Shown: one piece after another, positions 12,929-22,208 of the stretch
Layout of the letters: every line of letters begins with the position of its first letter
Numbering within the stretch: position 1 is the stretch's first letter
NCBI GenBank assembly: GCA_029881035.1
Contig: JAOUNI010000017.1
Location: 1-47,643 of the forward strand
Direction: 5' to 3'
DNA length: 47,643 nt
From: Gammaproteobacteria bacterium
Lineage (GTDB): Bacteria; Pseudomonadota; Gammaproteobacteria; SZUA-229
Position numbers and translations under genes: made by a program
Notes under the pieces: generated by a model
Told to the model about the DNA's origin: nothing
Seen by the model: only the letters and a program-made list of their open reading frames with translations
Database searches by the model: none

Positions 12929-13090
12929 AAATTCTTCACACAATTTATTACGTTATTGACTATTTCCTGGCGACCCGATTTTCACTTTTGAGATATCACA
13001 TACTCTACCTCAACACATTAACATGAAAGCTTACGCTTTATTAACCATAATAACTTCAGTTATAAAAAACGTTTTTTATAACAATACTTA

Positions 13091-14215
13091 TTACGAATCA
13101 CGATTATAAATAATTACGCTGGTACGTAATCCGGTTCTGCCGAAACGGAATGATTTATCAAACGTCTGTAGACCTATAGGTAAATAAATGTTATCAGTTT
13201 GTGAACGATAGGACTCAACATCCTCATCTGGATCGTGGATATAAATAAAAGTATCATCCATGCCTGTCACCACCACCCAATGCGGTGCCTTGTCACGGGT
13301 ATAGCTGTAAGTACTAATCAGTACCAGAGGAATACCTCCCTGACTAAATTTTTCTTCCAGTTCATTCATGGTGAGATTGTCATAATGAAGCATAATATCT
13401 GTTTCACTAATCTGCCTCATAAAATCTTCATGCACCAGTTCCATCACCGCTTTTTTCCCTTCATTGCGAACACCATCCAGAAAAAGTGGCTCCTTACTAT
13501 TCACATAAACTTCAACACGAAAACCACGACGCCAGGCTGCTAATGCCAGCCCCAATGGGCTACAACCACCGTGACCGGATGTCATATAAATAGTAGTAGC
13601 TTCACGCCAGAGCTGTAACTCCAGTGTGCGATCAGCTTTGGTGTCCTTGTCTAATGCCTGCATAGCCATAATCAGAGAAGCAGAGCCACAGGTAAAATCG
13701 GTAGTTTGTTCGTAATATGGAATTTGTATAAAATCAAACTGATCTTCACGGTGCAAAATTCGCTTCTCGAAACGTAATGCATCGGCATGGTCTTCATAAT
13801 AATCCTTAAACAACCCAAACGGATGATAGCCTAATTTTTTATACAACCGAATTGCGCCACTATTGTTCTGGTGAACCTCCAACCTCATGTAGATACAATC
13901 ACGTAAAGTTGCACGTCGCTCAGCTTCCTGCAAAAGCTGCTCACCTATACCCTGCCCGCGAGCTTCAGGTAGAACCGCAAATGAATAGAGTCGTGCCAGA
14001 TGAGTACCTCGGTGATACAACACCAGGCTATAACCAACAATCATCTCTGCCTTCCGTGCCACTATAAAATCGCAGTTACCTTTCTGGATCATGCGTTTAA
14101 AACTACGTGCAGACATTCGATCCATATCAAAACAACGGTTTTCTATAACAACCAGTGCATCCACATCATCCAGTGTTGCCAGTGAAAAGTTAATTTTTGA
14201 TATGGCATTCATCAT
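13091..14215 (-). CDS. GNAT acetyltransferase fused to a C39-like cysteine peptidase
   Basis: 374 residues in two parts. Residues 8-155 form a RimI-like GNAT domain, with the acetyl-CoA loop RGQGIGEQLL (86-95) and the NNSGAIRLYKKLGY end motif (117-130). Residues 160-374 form a papain-like C39 domain: oxyanion Gln170, nucleophile Cys176 in DFTCGSAS, His312 in APHWVVVTG and Asp328 in IHDPD, so the catalytic set looks complete. There is no ABC transporter part. It starts inside the stop of the M14 gene (TAATG), so the two are translationally coupled. An ATP-grasp ligase lies divergently beyond. Similar fusions are known beside RimK-like ligases, and peptide modification has been predicted for such loci. 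The substrate is unknown. Confidence 0.87.
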   Translation of the reverse strand: MMNAISKINFSLATLDDVDALVVIENRCFDMDRMSARSFKRMIQKGNCDFIVARKAEMIVGYSLVLYHRGTHLARLYSFAVLPEARGQGIGEQLLQEAERRATLRDCIYMRLEVHQNNSGAIRLYKKLGYHPFGLFKDYYEDHADALRFEKRILHREDQFDFIQIPYYEQTTDFTCGSASLIMAMQALDKDTKADRTLELQLWREATTIYMTSGHGGCSPLGLALAAWRRGFRVEVYVNSKEPLFLDGVRNEGKKAVMELVHEDFMRQISETDIMLHYDNLTMNELEEKFSQGGIPLVLISTYSYTRDKAPHWVVVTGMDDTFIYIHDPDEDVESYRSQTDNIYLPIGLQTFDKSFRFGRTGLRTSVIIYNRDS

Positions 14216-15324
14216 TAGTTACTCAACCCATACAGCGCCTGATGTACACATTGTCGACCGCGCATTAATACCATTTCCTGCCAGTCAGTAGTACCCGGAT
14301 AAAAAATACGACGAATTTCATGTTTAATCTGTTGCGTTTCATGCGCAAACCAGTCGACAGTTTTGCGGTGCAAAAAATGATCTTTCCTTAAAACTTCGAA
14401 CATCTGCTCAATGGAGTATGTACCAAACTCCAGTGTCACAAAACAGACACGTTCTGCAAGCTGTTGATGCCAGTGATAATCGATCAATCCCTGCTTGGGT
14501 ACAGACGTGGAACTACCCAGTGCCGGTTCAGTAACGCTATCACCATACCACTGTCGGGCACGTTTTACGCCGATGGATCCAGGCGGGTGATCGCAGATCA
14601 CTTCACCATAAGCAAACGGCCCGAGTCCACTGTGAATATCAATCACCGCAACACTCTGGCGTTTTTGTAATTCAAAATCGACAATGATCTGCTCCAGATT
14701 AACTCGCGATTGACTGGGCTGAGTACCGCCATAAAAAAGGCCATCGGCAAACTGGTACTGTCCGCCACTGACGGCGAGTTCGAATGCCTGCTGACCAAAC
14801 TCATCACGATAATCGTTAAGCTTTTGTGTTGCACCTTCCCAGTCACTCAGCTTCGCTGGCAGGATATTGCTAGCAAGCTGCTCGTAACCGGTATTGTGCG
14901 GCAGTGGCTGTTTGAAATCGACAAAGTTACGATTCAAATCAACCCCGTCTTCATTCACCCGGCGTAACCAGGCAAAACCGTAGGGATTAATAGCATGAAT
15001 GTATAACACCGCGACGCCAGCAGGCAGCGTTTCCCGAGTGAGTGTTTGTAAGCAATCGATCTGGATGGCCGAGCCAGCAAAACCTTCAACGCCATGGGTG
15101 GCACTTTGCAACACCAGCACGCAAGCGGCATCAACATCACCCTGCCACGAGACAGCCGTTATTAATGGCTCACCATTCGGACCTGTTTCTCTATAAGTAA
15201 ACTCCTGATAGAAGCTATGATTGAGCTGGTTGCAGGTATGCTCTTTAAATTTCTGCTGTGCCTCGGCATAACTACTCGAATAGCACTGTGCCAGATAAGC
15301 GGGTGTAAATAGAACCGGTTTCAT
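14215..15324 (-). CDS. M14-family metallopeptidase-like protein (DUF2817)
   Basis: About 369 residues of the DUF2817 group of zinc carboxypeptidase-like enzymes. Zinc ligands are His77 and Glu80 in SATHGVEGFAGS, and a later His in VIDIHSGLG. The substrate-binding Arg lies in GVDLNRNF and a probable catalytic Glu in VTLEFGTYS. No signal peptide is seen, so it acts in the cytoplasm. The ATG at 15324 is chosen over an in-frame TTG at 15339 because AGGT stands five bases before it. It is upstream of and coupled to the GNAT-C39 gene and divergent from the RimK-like ligase. Expected activity is removal of a terminal residue or acyl group from a small peptide or amide; the substrate is not known. 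Confidence 0.87.
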   Translation of the reverse strand: MKPVLFTPAYLAQCYSSSYAEAQQKFKEHTCNQLNHSFYQEFTYRETGPNGEPLITAVSWQGDVDAACVLVLQSATHGVEGFAGSAIQIDCLQTLTRETLPAGVAVLYIHAINPYGFAWLRRVNEDGVDLNRNFVDFKQPLPHNTGYEQLASNILPAKLSDWEGATQKLNDYRDEFGQQAFELAVSGGQYQFADGLFYGGTQPSQSRVNLEQIIVDFELQKRQSVAVIDIHSGLGPFAYGEVICDHPPGSIGVKRARQWYGDSVTEPALGSSTSVPKQGLIDYHWHQQLAERVCFVTLEFGTYSIEQMFEVLRKDHFLHRKTVDWFAHETQQIKHEIRRIFYPGTTDWQEMVLMRGRQCVHQALYGLSN

Positions 15325-15486
15325 ATTGACCTGTGGCAAGCCCTAAAACTAAGAAAAAATAACCTGAAAAAATATTCTACATTACATACAAAAAACATTT
15401 CTTGTTTTATTATATCGTTCTGTTTTCTTTTGTCGGAGTCCATCCGTGACTGCATTAGAAATCGAATTAATTAATGGAAGCCTTCC
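15325..15486. promoter_or_regulatory. Divergent control region between M14 gene and ATP-grasp ligase
   Basis: 162 strongly AT-rich bases between the leftward M14/GNAT-C39 pair and the rightward ligase gene. It must hold promoters for both directions and makes joint regulation plausible. On the plus strand a TATAT-type -10-like run lies near 15411-15416, and a good ribosome-binding site (CGGAG, 15435-15439) precedes a GTG at 15446 that opens a short out-of-frame reading frame. The ligase has its own GGAAG six bases before the ATG at 15487. No operator palindrome was identified. Confidence 0.4.
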
Positions 15487-15502
15487 ATGCATCCCGTTTT
15501 AA
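15446..15502 (+). CDS. Possible 18-residue leader peptide before the ATP-grasp gene
   Basis: A GTG-initiated frame, MTALEIELINGSLPCIPF, has a well-placed CGGAG ribosome-binding site and ends 16 bases inside the ligase gene in a different frame. Translation of it could couple to, or compete with, initiation of the ligase at 15487. It may equally be a chance frame; support is only the binding site and position. Confidence 0.25.
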   Translation: MTALEIELINGSLPCIPF

Positions 15503-16968
15503 TTGTTGTTGATAATCCCCAGGACTGGAAAGCCTACCTCCCGTCAGACAAAGTTATCAGTGTTCAGGACTACCTGTCTCATGATGAGCAGTACAAGCTA
15601 CCAAACACCCACATTATCAACTTATGCCGAAGTTACAAATACCTGACCAACGGTTATTACTGCTCGCTACTGGCTGAAGCACGTAACCACAAAGTCATCC
15701 CTTCAGTACGAAGTATTAACGACCTGAGTATCAAGTCACTCTACAGCCTGGACATTGGCAACCTGAATCAGGTACTGGAAAAACTCTTTCAGGACCACCA
15801 GACCGATGGCAACTCCCAGACCATCAAGCTGTTCTTCGGCATGCCGGACATTCCTCAACTGGAACACTTCGGACGGCAAATTTTTGAACTGTTTGCCTGC
15901 CCTATCCTGATCGTCACCCTAAAGCGACGTGAGCACTGGTCGATTGATTCGATCAAACCCGGCGTACTGAACACTCTCAGCAATCATGAAGAGGACCTGT
16001 TCGCGGCCGCGCTGGAAAAATTCAACAACTCAGTCTGGCGCAAACCACGCTCACGCAAAAAGAGCCGTTACGATCTGGCAATACTGATTGACCCGGATGA
16101 AAAATTACCCCCCAGTGATAAACCTGCACTGAAAAAATTCGTCAGCATCGGCAAACAGATGGGTATCAATGCTGAACTGATCACCAAAAAAGACTATACC
16201 CGCCTGGCTGAGTACGACGCGTTATTTATACGTGAAACCACGGCGATCAACAACCACACTTATCGTTTTGCCAAGCGTGCAGAAAGTGAAGACATGGTGG
16301 TGTTCGATGACCCGCAATCCATCCTGCGCTGCACCAACAAAATTTTCCTGGCCGACCTGCTCAGCACCAATGGCGTAGCCACACCAAAAACATTGATTCT
16401 AAGCAAAGACCTGCAAAAAGAAGACATGGAGCGAGCGGTTGCAACGCTCGGTTATCCCATGGTAATCAAAATTCCCGATGGATCATTTTCACGCGGTGTC
16501 GTTAAAGTCGAAAATGAACCGGCGCTAAAACAGCAACTGGACGAATTATTCAAGCAGTCTGCACTGGTACTGGCACAGGCTTATACCTTCACCGATTACG
16601 ACTGGCGCATTGGCATGCTGAACAAGAAACCGATTTTCAGCTGCCAGTATTTTATGACCCGTGGCCACTGGCAGATTTATAAACACACTGTGGGTGGCAA
16701 AGTGACCTCCGGTGGTTTCCGCACCCTGCCCATTCATGAGACACCCAAAAAAGTCCTCGATGTCGCCATCCGTGCCGCCAACCTGATCGGCGACGGTCTT
16801 TACGGTGTAGACATCAAACAGCATGGCGATACCGCCATGGTGATCGAGGTCAACGACAATCCCAATGTCGACTCCGGCGTTGAAGACCTGTACTTAAAAG
16901 ATGATCTTTACCGCATCATTCTGGAAGAATTTGTTCGCCGCCTGGAACGTAAGCGCGCTGGTAGTTAG
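15487..16968 (+). CDS. RimK-like ATP-grasp ligase with RLAN N-terminal domain
   Basis: 493 residues. The N-terminal 150 match the RLAN domain (RimK-like ATP-grasp N-terminal): MHPVLIVVDNPQDW and NLCRSYKYLTNGYYCSLLAE. Residues about 195-280 form the pre-ATP-grasp domain, and 285-480 the ATP-grasp core, with YPMVIKIPDGSFSRGVVKVE (323-342), YGVDIK (439-444) and VIEVNDNPNVDSG (452-464), which supplies the metal-binding Glu/Asn. Enzymes of this class join an amino acid to a carboxylate through an acyl-phosphate; RimK itself adds glutamates to ribosomal protein S6. The acceptor here is not known. It is divergent from the M14 and GNAT-C39 genes, and a broken permease tail follows. Confidence 0.9.
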   Translation: MHPVLIVVDNPQDWKAYLPSDKVISVQDYLSHDEQYKLPNTHIINLCRSYKYLTNGYYCSLLAEARNHKVIPSVRSINDLSIKSLYSLDIGNLNQVLEKLFQDHQTDGNSQTIKLFFGMPDIPQLEHFGRQIFELFACPILIVTLKRREHWSIDSIKPGVLNTLSNHEEDLFAAALEKFNNSVWRKPRSRKKSRYDLAILIDPDEKLPPSDKPALKKFVSIGKQMGINAELITKKDYTRLAEYDALFIRETTAINNHTYRFAKRAESEDMVVFDDPQSILRCTNKIFLADLLSTNGVATPKTLILSKDLQKEDMERAVATLGYPMVIKIPDGSFSRGVVKVENEPALKQQLDELFKQSALVLAQAYTFTDYDWRIGMLNKKPIFSCQYFMTRGHWQIYKHTVGGKVTSGGFRTLPIHETPKKVLDVAIRAANLIGDGLYGVDIKQHGDTAMVIEVNDNPNVDSGVEDLYLKDDLYRIILEEFVRRLERKRAGS

Positions 16969-20453: not shown

Positions 20454-22208
20454 TTAATTACTCTGCCAGTTATCCTGCTTAAATTTATGCAGCTTAGCAT
20501 AACCCTGTAATAATTTATTGTGAGTAACAAATCCTTCCAGTGATAATCCAGGACTATGCAAACCGTGGAAGTTTTCTATTCCTTCGATGAGTTTGATACC
20601 CGTTTTCAGATTTTCCATACCGAACATTTTAGCCAGACTATCAGCGTAATCTTCATAGTCACGTGATTCATCCAGCTTGATCTCTAGCAATGCCTGCATA
20701 CAGAGATATTCCAGTGAACGCGCTTCATCGAGTTGATCGATTTGCAAACTCCAGTCTACCCATTCTGCAGCCTGTTCATTATCACCTATAGCCAGACACA
20801 ACATGGCTTTTAATTCACCAATGCGAAGGCTAGCCCATGCCGTGCCCACATCCGGTGCAATACCAATAAATTCCGCAACACGTTGAAGGTCGTTATAACC
20901 ACCTTCTTCCAGTCGCTCAAGGATATCCTGCCATTTTTTTTCATCGAGATTTTTTAAAGACAGAATATCTTTACGAAACAATGCACCTTCATTGTTGTTA
21001 TTCCAGATAAGATCATCAACCGGATAAATATCTGATATACCCGGCACGATAATGCGGCAGGCATAAACATTAAGGTGTTCATAATCACAAATATAAATAT
21101 CATTACCCATGTCGTGAATAATTTTAGTTAGATAGGCAAATTCATCATGGGTATTAGCATCATGATCCCAGTCATAAAACTCATAATCAGGTTTATCCTT
21201 GAAAAAGTCGTAAGAGATCAGACCACTGGAATCAATGAAGTGCGTTTCAAGATTATGGTGATCAGCGACTTCATCGAGATCAAAGCTCGGTGGTAGAAAG
21301 CCATCAAGCTGATCAAGTCCGCGGCCTTGCAACAATTCTGTGACAGTACGTTCTAGCGCAACCTCAAAACAGGGGTGCGCGCCAAATGAAGCAAATACGG
21401 AACCATTACGGGGGTTAATCAGCGTCACACTCATGACAGGGTAAGTACCACCGAGTGAAGCATCCGCAATACGCAAATGATAACCGTGACTTCCAAGCCT
21501 GGAAATTGCTTCAACAATCTTTGGAAATCGATTTAGAACTTCCTGCGGCACTTCAGGCAGGCAAATACCCTCTGCGATAATTTTATTTTTAACGTAACGT
21601 TCAAAGACTTCAGACACCCCCTGAACTCTGGCTTCGTAACGAGTATTACCCGCTGACATACCGTTACTAACATATATATTGCCAATCACATTAACCGGAA
21701 ACCAGCATAATTCACTATCTCGTTGGCGTTCGTATGGCAGCGCGCAAATGCCACGCTCACCCGTACCTGAGTTCATATCATAAAGCTGATGAGGTTTAAG
21801 CTCTCCTTCTGGATCGTAATAATCCCATAATTCCTCATTTAACAAACCTTCAGGCATGGTATTTTCATCTTCAACATTGAACCAACGTTCATCAGGGTAA
21901 TGCACAAACTTACCTTTGGAAAATTCCTCGCCTAAATAAAAATCCGCAAAAAAGTAATTGCAGCTAAGACGTTCAAAATATTCTCCGAGAGCACTGGCAA
22001 GACACGCTTTACGTGTTGCACCTTTGCCATTAGCAAACATCAGACCACAGTCCTTATCACGGATATGCACCGAAAAAACATTTGGCACTGGATTCAACCA
22101 GGAAGCTTCTTCAATATTGATGCCGAGATTCTCAAGCTTGGCAAGCATGGTTTCGATGCTAGACTCAAGATCACGATCTTTACCCTTGATATAAGTTTTA
22201 TCTGTCAT
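20454..22208 (-). CDS. ycaO: YcaO-domain protein, RimO accessory type
   Basis: 584 residues, close to the 586 of E. coli YcaO and colinear with it. The ATP-binding YcaO core includes GKGATRKACLASALGEYFER (about 80-99), GNTRYEARVQGVSEVFERYV and RTVTELLQGRG. A C-terminal helical region follows, with EARSLEYLCMQALLEIKLDE. E. coli YcaO potentiates RimO-dependent beta-methylthiolation of ribosomal protein S12. No azoline precursor peptide or cyclodehydratase partner gene is nearby, favouring this housekeeping role over natural-product synthesis. rimO is not in the window. It is followed by the acyltransferase gene. Confidence 0.93.
   Translation of the reverse strand: MTDKTYIKGKDRDLESSIETMLAKLENLGINIEEASWLNPVPNVFSVHIRDKDCGLMFANGKGATRKACLASALGEYFERLSCNYFFADFYLGEEFSKGKFVHYPDERWFNVEDENTMPEGLLNEELWDYYDPEGELKPHQLYDMNSGTGERGICALPYERQRDSELCWFPVNVIGNIYVSNGMSAGNTRYEARVQGVSEVFERYVKNKIIAEGICLPEVPQEVLNRFPKIVEAISRLGSHGYHLRIADASLGGTYPVMSVTLINPRNGSVFASFGAHPCFEVALERTVTELLQGRGLDQLDGFLPPSFDLDEVADHHNLETHFIDSSGLISYDFFKDKPDYEFYDWDHDANTHDEFAYLTKIIHDMGNDIYICDYEHLNVYACRIIVPGISDIYPVDDLIWNNNNEGALFRKDILSLKNLDEKKWQDILERLEEGGYNDLQRVAEFIGIAPDVGTAWASLRIGELKAMLCLAIGDNEQAAEWVDWSLQIDQLDEARSLEYLCMQALLEIKLDESRDYEDYADSLAKMFGMENLKTGIKLIEGIENFHGLHSPGLSLEGFVTHNKLLQGYAKLHKFKQDNWQSN

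Follow-up and report, generated by a model that had tools for sequence, protein, structure and literature searches.

An RLAN ligase, a GNAT–C39 fusion and a dedicated DUF2817 M14 protein form a conserved proteobacterial gene module, possibly for editing peptide or protein tails

The locus studied here raises the question of whether three neighboring genes, encoding an ATP-grasp ligase, a fusion of an acetyltransferase to a cysteine peptidase, and an M14-type zinc hydrolase, act as one functional unit, and if so on what kind of substrate. Within the window (the whole stretch of 47,643 nucleotides that was analyzed), open reading frames and Pfam agree with the layout given in the initial annotation: an RLAN/RimK-like ligase gene on the plus strand diverges from a DUF2817 M14 gene that is followed by a GNAT-DUF3335 (C39) gene, both on the minus strand (Table 1). 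Its observations on the proteins also held up, in that the catalytic residues of all three are present and kept in relatives, the M14 stop and the GNAT–C39 start overlap as TAATG at 14217–14213, and no signal peptide was seen in any of the three upon inspection by eye. The length of the divergent spacer is exactly 162 bases if the M14 start is taken at ATG 15324, which has AGG ahead of it and is likelier than the possible TTG at 15339. The length stated in that annotation was thus reproduced, but not the shared control role assigned to the spacer: a promoter scan found 3 sites where 7.5 are expected by chance, an Rfam search of the spacer gave no match, and among the relatives compared only the closest conserves it. 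To judge from its sequence, an AT-rich palindrome at the other end of the locus is a possible transcription end for the GNAT–C39 gene. A few kilobases away, the window also contains another ribosome-modification gene, a YcaO of the S12 methylthiotransferase accessory type (20454–22208).

Table 1. Coordinates in the window of the module genes, their domains and nearby sequence features.
Feature	Position	Strand	Evidence
RLAN/RimK-like ATP-grasp ligase, 493 aa	15487..16968	+	ORF, Pfam, AF2 pLDDT 88
RLAN N-terminal domain (PF14401)	15562..16008	+	Pfam E 2.8e-50
ATP-grasp part, residues 195-488	16069..16950	+	Fold search: LysX/ArgX/RimK nearest, Z 26-28, 16-22% identity
M14-type zinc carboxypeptidase-like protein (DUF2817)	14215..15324	-	ORF, Pfam, AF2 pLDDT 90, M14 carboxypeptidase folds Z about 22
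GNAT-C39 fusion, 374 aa, overlapping M14 stop codon (TAATG)	13091..14215	-	ORF, Pfam
RimI-like GNAT domain	13775..14167	-	TIGR01575 88 bits
DUF3335 papain/C39-like peptidase domain with C176, H312, D328	13109..13723	-	Pfam, conservation
Divergent intergenic region, 162 bases	15325..15486	.	Gap between likely M14 start and ligase start
Perfect 22-base palindrome TTATAAAAAACGTTTTTTATAA, AT-rich, directly past GNAT-C39 stop	13060..13081	.	Sequence

The ligase belongs to the RLAN ligase family, since it carries PF14401 (E about 2e-49, 167 bits, cut-off 25) fused to a RimK-like ATP-grasp domain (PF08443, 40 bits, cut-off 21), with the ATP-grasp residues K328, E454-x-N456 and D442 present and conserved among relatives. 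In a fold search with its AF2 model, the matches listed fell on the ATP-grasp part, and the nearest solved folds were LysX, ArgX and RimK, which couple an amino acid to a protein's terminal glutamate. The ligase nevertheless scores below the cut-off of each corresponding model, with 77.9–79.1 bits on TIGR00768 (RimK, cut-off 143.4) and 68.3 bits on TIGR02144 (LysX/ArgX, cut-off 275.6). Its partner matches Acetyltransf_1 (E 2e-17) and DUF3335 (PF11814, E 4e-90), and the latter part is a DUF3335/C39-like domain with a Cys-His-Asp set and an oxyanion Gln, of which Q170, C176 and H312 are invariant in relatives and D328 nearly so. By sequence the GNAT domain appears closest to RimI: on TIGR01575 (cut-off 86.4) the whole GNAT–C39 protein scores 85.4 bits and the frame 88.0.

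A ligase nearest RimK, LysX and ArgX that stands beside a GNAT nearest RimI could be taken to modify S6/S18-like ribosomal proteins, with the two hydrolases reversing or limiting the modification, and it fits this reading that RimB–RimK genes lie beside some copies of the module. Poly-glutamate is made by RimK and cut by RimB, and reversible polyglutamylation of RpsF by this pair is proven in Pseudomonas (PMC11957791). We nonetheless consider the ribosomal assignment unlikely. The module ligase, besides its low score on the RimK model, has no Rimk_N domain, no ribosomal gene adjoins the module, and the same genome encodes elsewhere a clear RimI (130.8 bits on TIGR01575) as well as two proteins that do exceed the RimK cut-off, so that the module is not their stand-in. 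For the same reason, the rival that the initial annotation had allowed for, in which the ligase is simply RimK, is disfavored.

The M14 protein matches DUF2817 (PF10994) over its full length (residues 20–359, 347 bits, E 2e-103), with the zinc triad H77xxE80 and H231 and the residues E299, R122, N131 and R132 all invariant. Among the matches listed for its AF2 model, the nearest solved folds are M14 carboxypeptidases at 12–18% identity, and no AstE/aspartoacylase-type M14 fold is found among the best 50 listed. The protein therefore combines the fold, the HxxE...H motif, the catalytic Glu and the carboxylate-binding Arg and Asn-Arg of M14 metallocarboxypeptidases. As its model is nearest to carboxypeptidases, we regard it as a putative carboxypeptidase that retains the residues for holding the free carboxylate of a C-terminus.

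When 56 DUF2817 proteins were placed in a tree, all 32 that are encoded beside the ligase and/or the GNAT–C39 gene fell in one clade (support 100/99), which has 34 sampled members; one of its two unlinked members comes from a genome with an RLAN ligase elsewhere (G514). The linked proteins come from two or more classes and from loci with four different gene orders, and 32/32 share a signature of K at position 277 (R in 2), D282 and W285; among the 24 other DUF2817 proteins, K277, D282 and W285 are found in 1, 6 and 2 cases, respectively. On these sequence grounds, the M14 protein is a dedicated subfamily of the module. The residue equated with position 255 of CPA is I, H, V, L or S and never basic, meaning that an acidic specificity cannot be derived from that site; the nearby K277, placed by hand alignment, is the sole pointer that hints at one.

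Whether the three genes belong together was assessed across genomes. Of the 229 genomes in the class sample, 50 carry RLAN and 34 have strong DUF3335, which in 33 of them is joined by RLAN (p 4e-26), and in the phylum sample of 299 genomes RLAN occurs in 56 and DUF3335 in 47, with 46 sharing both (p 4e-43). Where both occur, their genes are mostly adjacent. Strong DUF2817 is rarer, with 4 of the 9 copies in the class sample sitting in a module locus (a chance of about 2e-9 if gene positions are taken, crudely, as random). Since genome-level presence of DUF2817 and RLAN is not significantly associated within the class alone (4/9, p 0.11), the link of DUF2817 to the module rests on adjacency and on the dedicated clade.

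In gammaproteobacteria DUF2817 lies beside the module, and a set of 80 named loci includes the three-gene form from HdN1, Methylophaga, Methylomonas, Methylomicrobium and others. Outside the class, each of the 13 RLAN-bearing genomes examined from one family (f189) carries GNAT–C39, the ligase and, in convergent orientation, DUF2817, some of them with one or two genes intervening between the last two, and DUF2817 also lies beside the module in two genomes of another family. The order can change altogether: one genome (G253) has GNAT–C39, ligase and M14 on one strand, and another (G250, C1:246047–247894) has the DUF3335 and DUF2817 genes adjacent to each other but far from its RLAN gene. That the genes stay close to one another through four arrangements argues for a link in function. 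Trees built from the three proteins are in agreement, and over 14 loci the distance matrix of the ligase correlates with those of the M14 protein (r 0.94) and of GNAT–C39 (r 0.96). Co-occurrence, adjacency and clade data thus strongly support the proposal of a single functional unit made up of the three genes, and the association, clearly not limited to close relatives, spans distant proteobacteria. As far as sequences can tell, it is real and old, the genes having been inherited together for long.

Neither hydrolase is universal, however, as the M14 gene is missing from many loci (Pseudomonas) and the C39 domain is missing in Lysobacterales, where the GNAT stands alone. On the ligase tree, DUF2817-bearing loci are scattered inside one large clade, for which the simplest account would be gene loss in Pseudomonas and others. 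Loci that lack either hydrolase, together with a P. aeruginosa RLAN ligase that has no adjacent GNAT–C39 partners (L256:5905–7494), would be expected if the enzymes were merely co-located, each with its own substrate, and C39 and M14 were general recycling peptidases. Given that DUF3335 is nearly confined to RLAN genomes and that the linked DUF2817 proteins group in a single clade and share a private signature, we find this explanation quite improbable.

The loci fall into two types. In type A the ligase is accompanied by GNAT–C39, or by a GNAT alone as in Lysobacterales, whereas type B, a single well-supported clade on the ligase tree, has, one after the other along one strand, C39 without GNAT, the ligase, GCS2 and an N-formylglutamate-amidohydrolase-like (FGase) gene, as exemplified by L052:6354–10628. 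In four loci (L033, L035, L043 and L053), a 564-residue PF00246 M14 protein lies divergently beside the module (L035:8847–10541) and may replace DUF2817. M20 peptidases, which lie beside some loci, were considered as module parts but are acetylornithine deacetylases of the usual ArgE kind, in many cases with ArgA next in line, and were counted as neighbors; an extra M20 cluster in L037 and L074 was spurious, with no Pfam match. DnaJ, TonB receptor, aminotransferase, cation efflux and shikimate dehydrogenase neighbors were set aside as lineage-specific.

Several of these surroundings involve glutamate. Two tandem pairs of a Zn_protease (RimB-like) gene and RimK adjoin the GNAT–C39/RLAN module in Marinobacterium rhizophilum (L146:1983–5267), RimK lies beside the module in another Oceanospirillaceae locus, and ArgE–ArgA adjoins some type A loci. 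Canonical RimK is present in 41 of 50 RLAN genomes versus 68 of 179 others (p 2e-8, a value that ignores kinship and genome size). The orphan P. aeruginosa ligase, presumably PA1345 in PAO1 numbering, lies near a gamma-glutamyltransferase gene (ggt) and a glutamate/aspartate transporter. PA1345 appears in one study as a gene with a CpxR site (PMC12802237). Taken together, GCS2 and FGase in type B, the RimB–RimK neighbors and the RimK co-occurrence suggest a glutamate theme on circumstantial, sequence-based grounds.

A glutamate theme could also point away from proteins, with the module making a short N-acetylated peptide in free form, as an osmolyte, storage compound or protectant, and C39 and M14 recycling it. 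The type B locus with GCS2 and FGase resembles a small gamma-glutamyl or N-acyl-glutamate pathway, and the chemistries match those of NAGGN synthesis by AsnO, Ngg and a peptidase, which likewise joins a GNAT, an ATP-grasp and a metallopeptidase (PMC8070244). The match does not extend to the enzymes themselves: here the GNAT is fused to a cysteine peptidase rather than to the ligase, the ligase is of another subfamily and scores 37.5 bits on the NAGGN synthetase model (TIGR03103, the Ngg GNAT–ATP-grasp fusion, cut-off 569), and no amidotransferase was found next to the module. With the GNAT closest to RimI, which acts on the protein N-terminus, we hold this small-metabolite account to be possible but doubtful.

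The reading we prefer, which we judge to be evenly poised, is of a cytoplasmic module for a peptide or protein tail, probably a glutamate-containing one, to which it would add amino acids and which it would also acetylate and trim. Consuming ATP, the RLAN ligase would couple an amino acid to the tail at its C-terminal carboxylate or at one on a side chain, as RimK, LysX and ArgX do, and the RimI-like GNAT would acetylate a peptide of that pathway at its N-terminal amine. There, the C39 domain would cut the peptide internally and the M14 enzyme would take residues off its free C-terminus, which together would make the length or presence of the tail reversible. The substrate is the least certain step; a glutamate or oligo-glutamyl peptide, possibly the product of a separate RimK system, would fit the genomic context best. 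The write/erase or synthesis/trimming scheme proposed at the outset remains the most economical reading and is helped by the carboxypeptidase-like M14 model, while its substrate and the direction of the reactions stay proposals.

Among known systems, RimK/RimB/RimA similarly pairs a RimK-fold ligase with a protease in a write/erase arrangement, but in the module RLAN replaces Rimk_N, the peptidase folds are unrelated and canonical RimK is separate. LysX/ArgX with LysW offers the nearest solved fold, in a system where the amino acid is ligated to the terminal glutamate of a carrier protein, although the module ligase falls short of the LysX equivalog cut-off. The closest precedent is the RLAN and GNAT-papain pairing (PF14401, PF11814), which has the same ligase domain and the same GNAT–C39 partner, and which Iyer, Abhiman, Burroughs and Aravind reportedly predicted in 2009 to serve peptide synthesis or modification. 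DUF3335-GNAT fusions are mentioned, with Iyer et al. 2009 as the source, in a later article (PMC10318531). Otherwise the literature searched yielded a single line bearing on the module, the one on PA1345. The initial claim of an undescribed system is thereby narrowed: the pairing had been predicted, and what is less described is the dedicated DUF2817 carboxypeptidase clade that the unit here includes. Neither that clade nor the split into types A and B nor the link to RimK turned up in the literature searched, which covered works other than Iyer et al. 2009, and the first and the last of these seem to be undescribed.

RLAN ligases are present in about a fifth (56/299) of the sampled Pseudomonadota genomes, and the literature searched names no product for them. 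The bounded set of partners, the dedicated carboxypeptidase with its private signature and the lead toward glutamate and RimK make the substrate directly searchable by deletion and mass spectrometry. In its most specific form, which we offer quite tentatively, the module may be a third bacterial ATP-grasp/peptidase tail-editing system besides RimK–RimB and LysX–LysW, in which RLAN writes a probably glutamyl tail, the RimI-like domain caps it, and the co-evolved C39 and the private M14 enzyme erase it. Were that so, its logic would be comparable by analogy to that of the eukaryotic TTLL ligases and CCP carboxypeptidases, and a reversible peptide-tail modification would be added to bacterial physiology.
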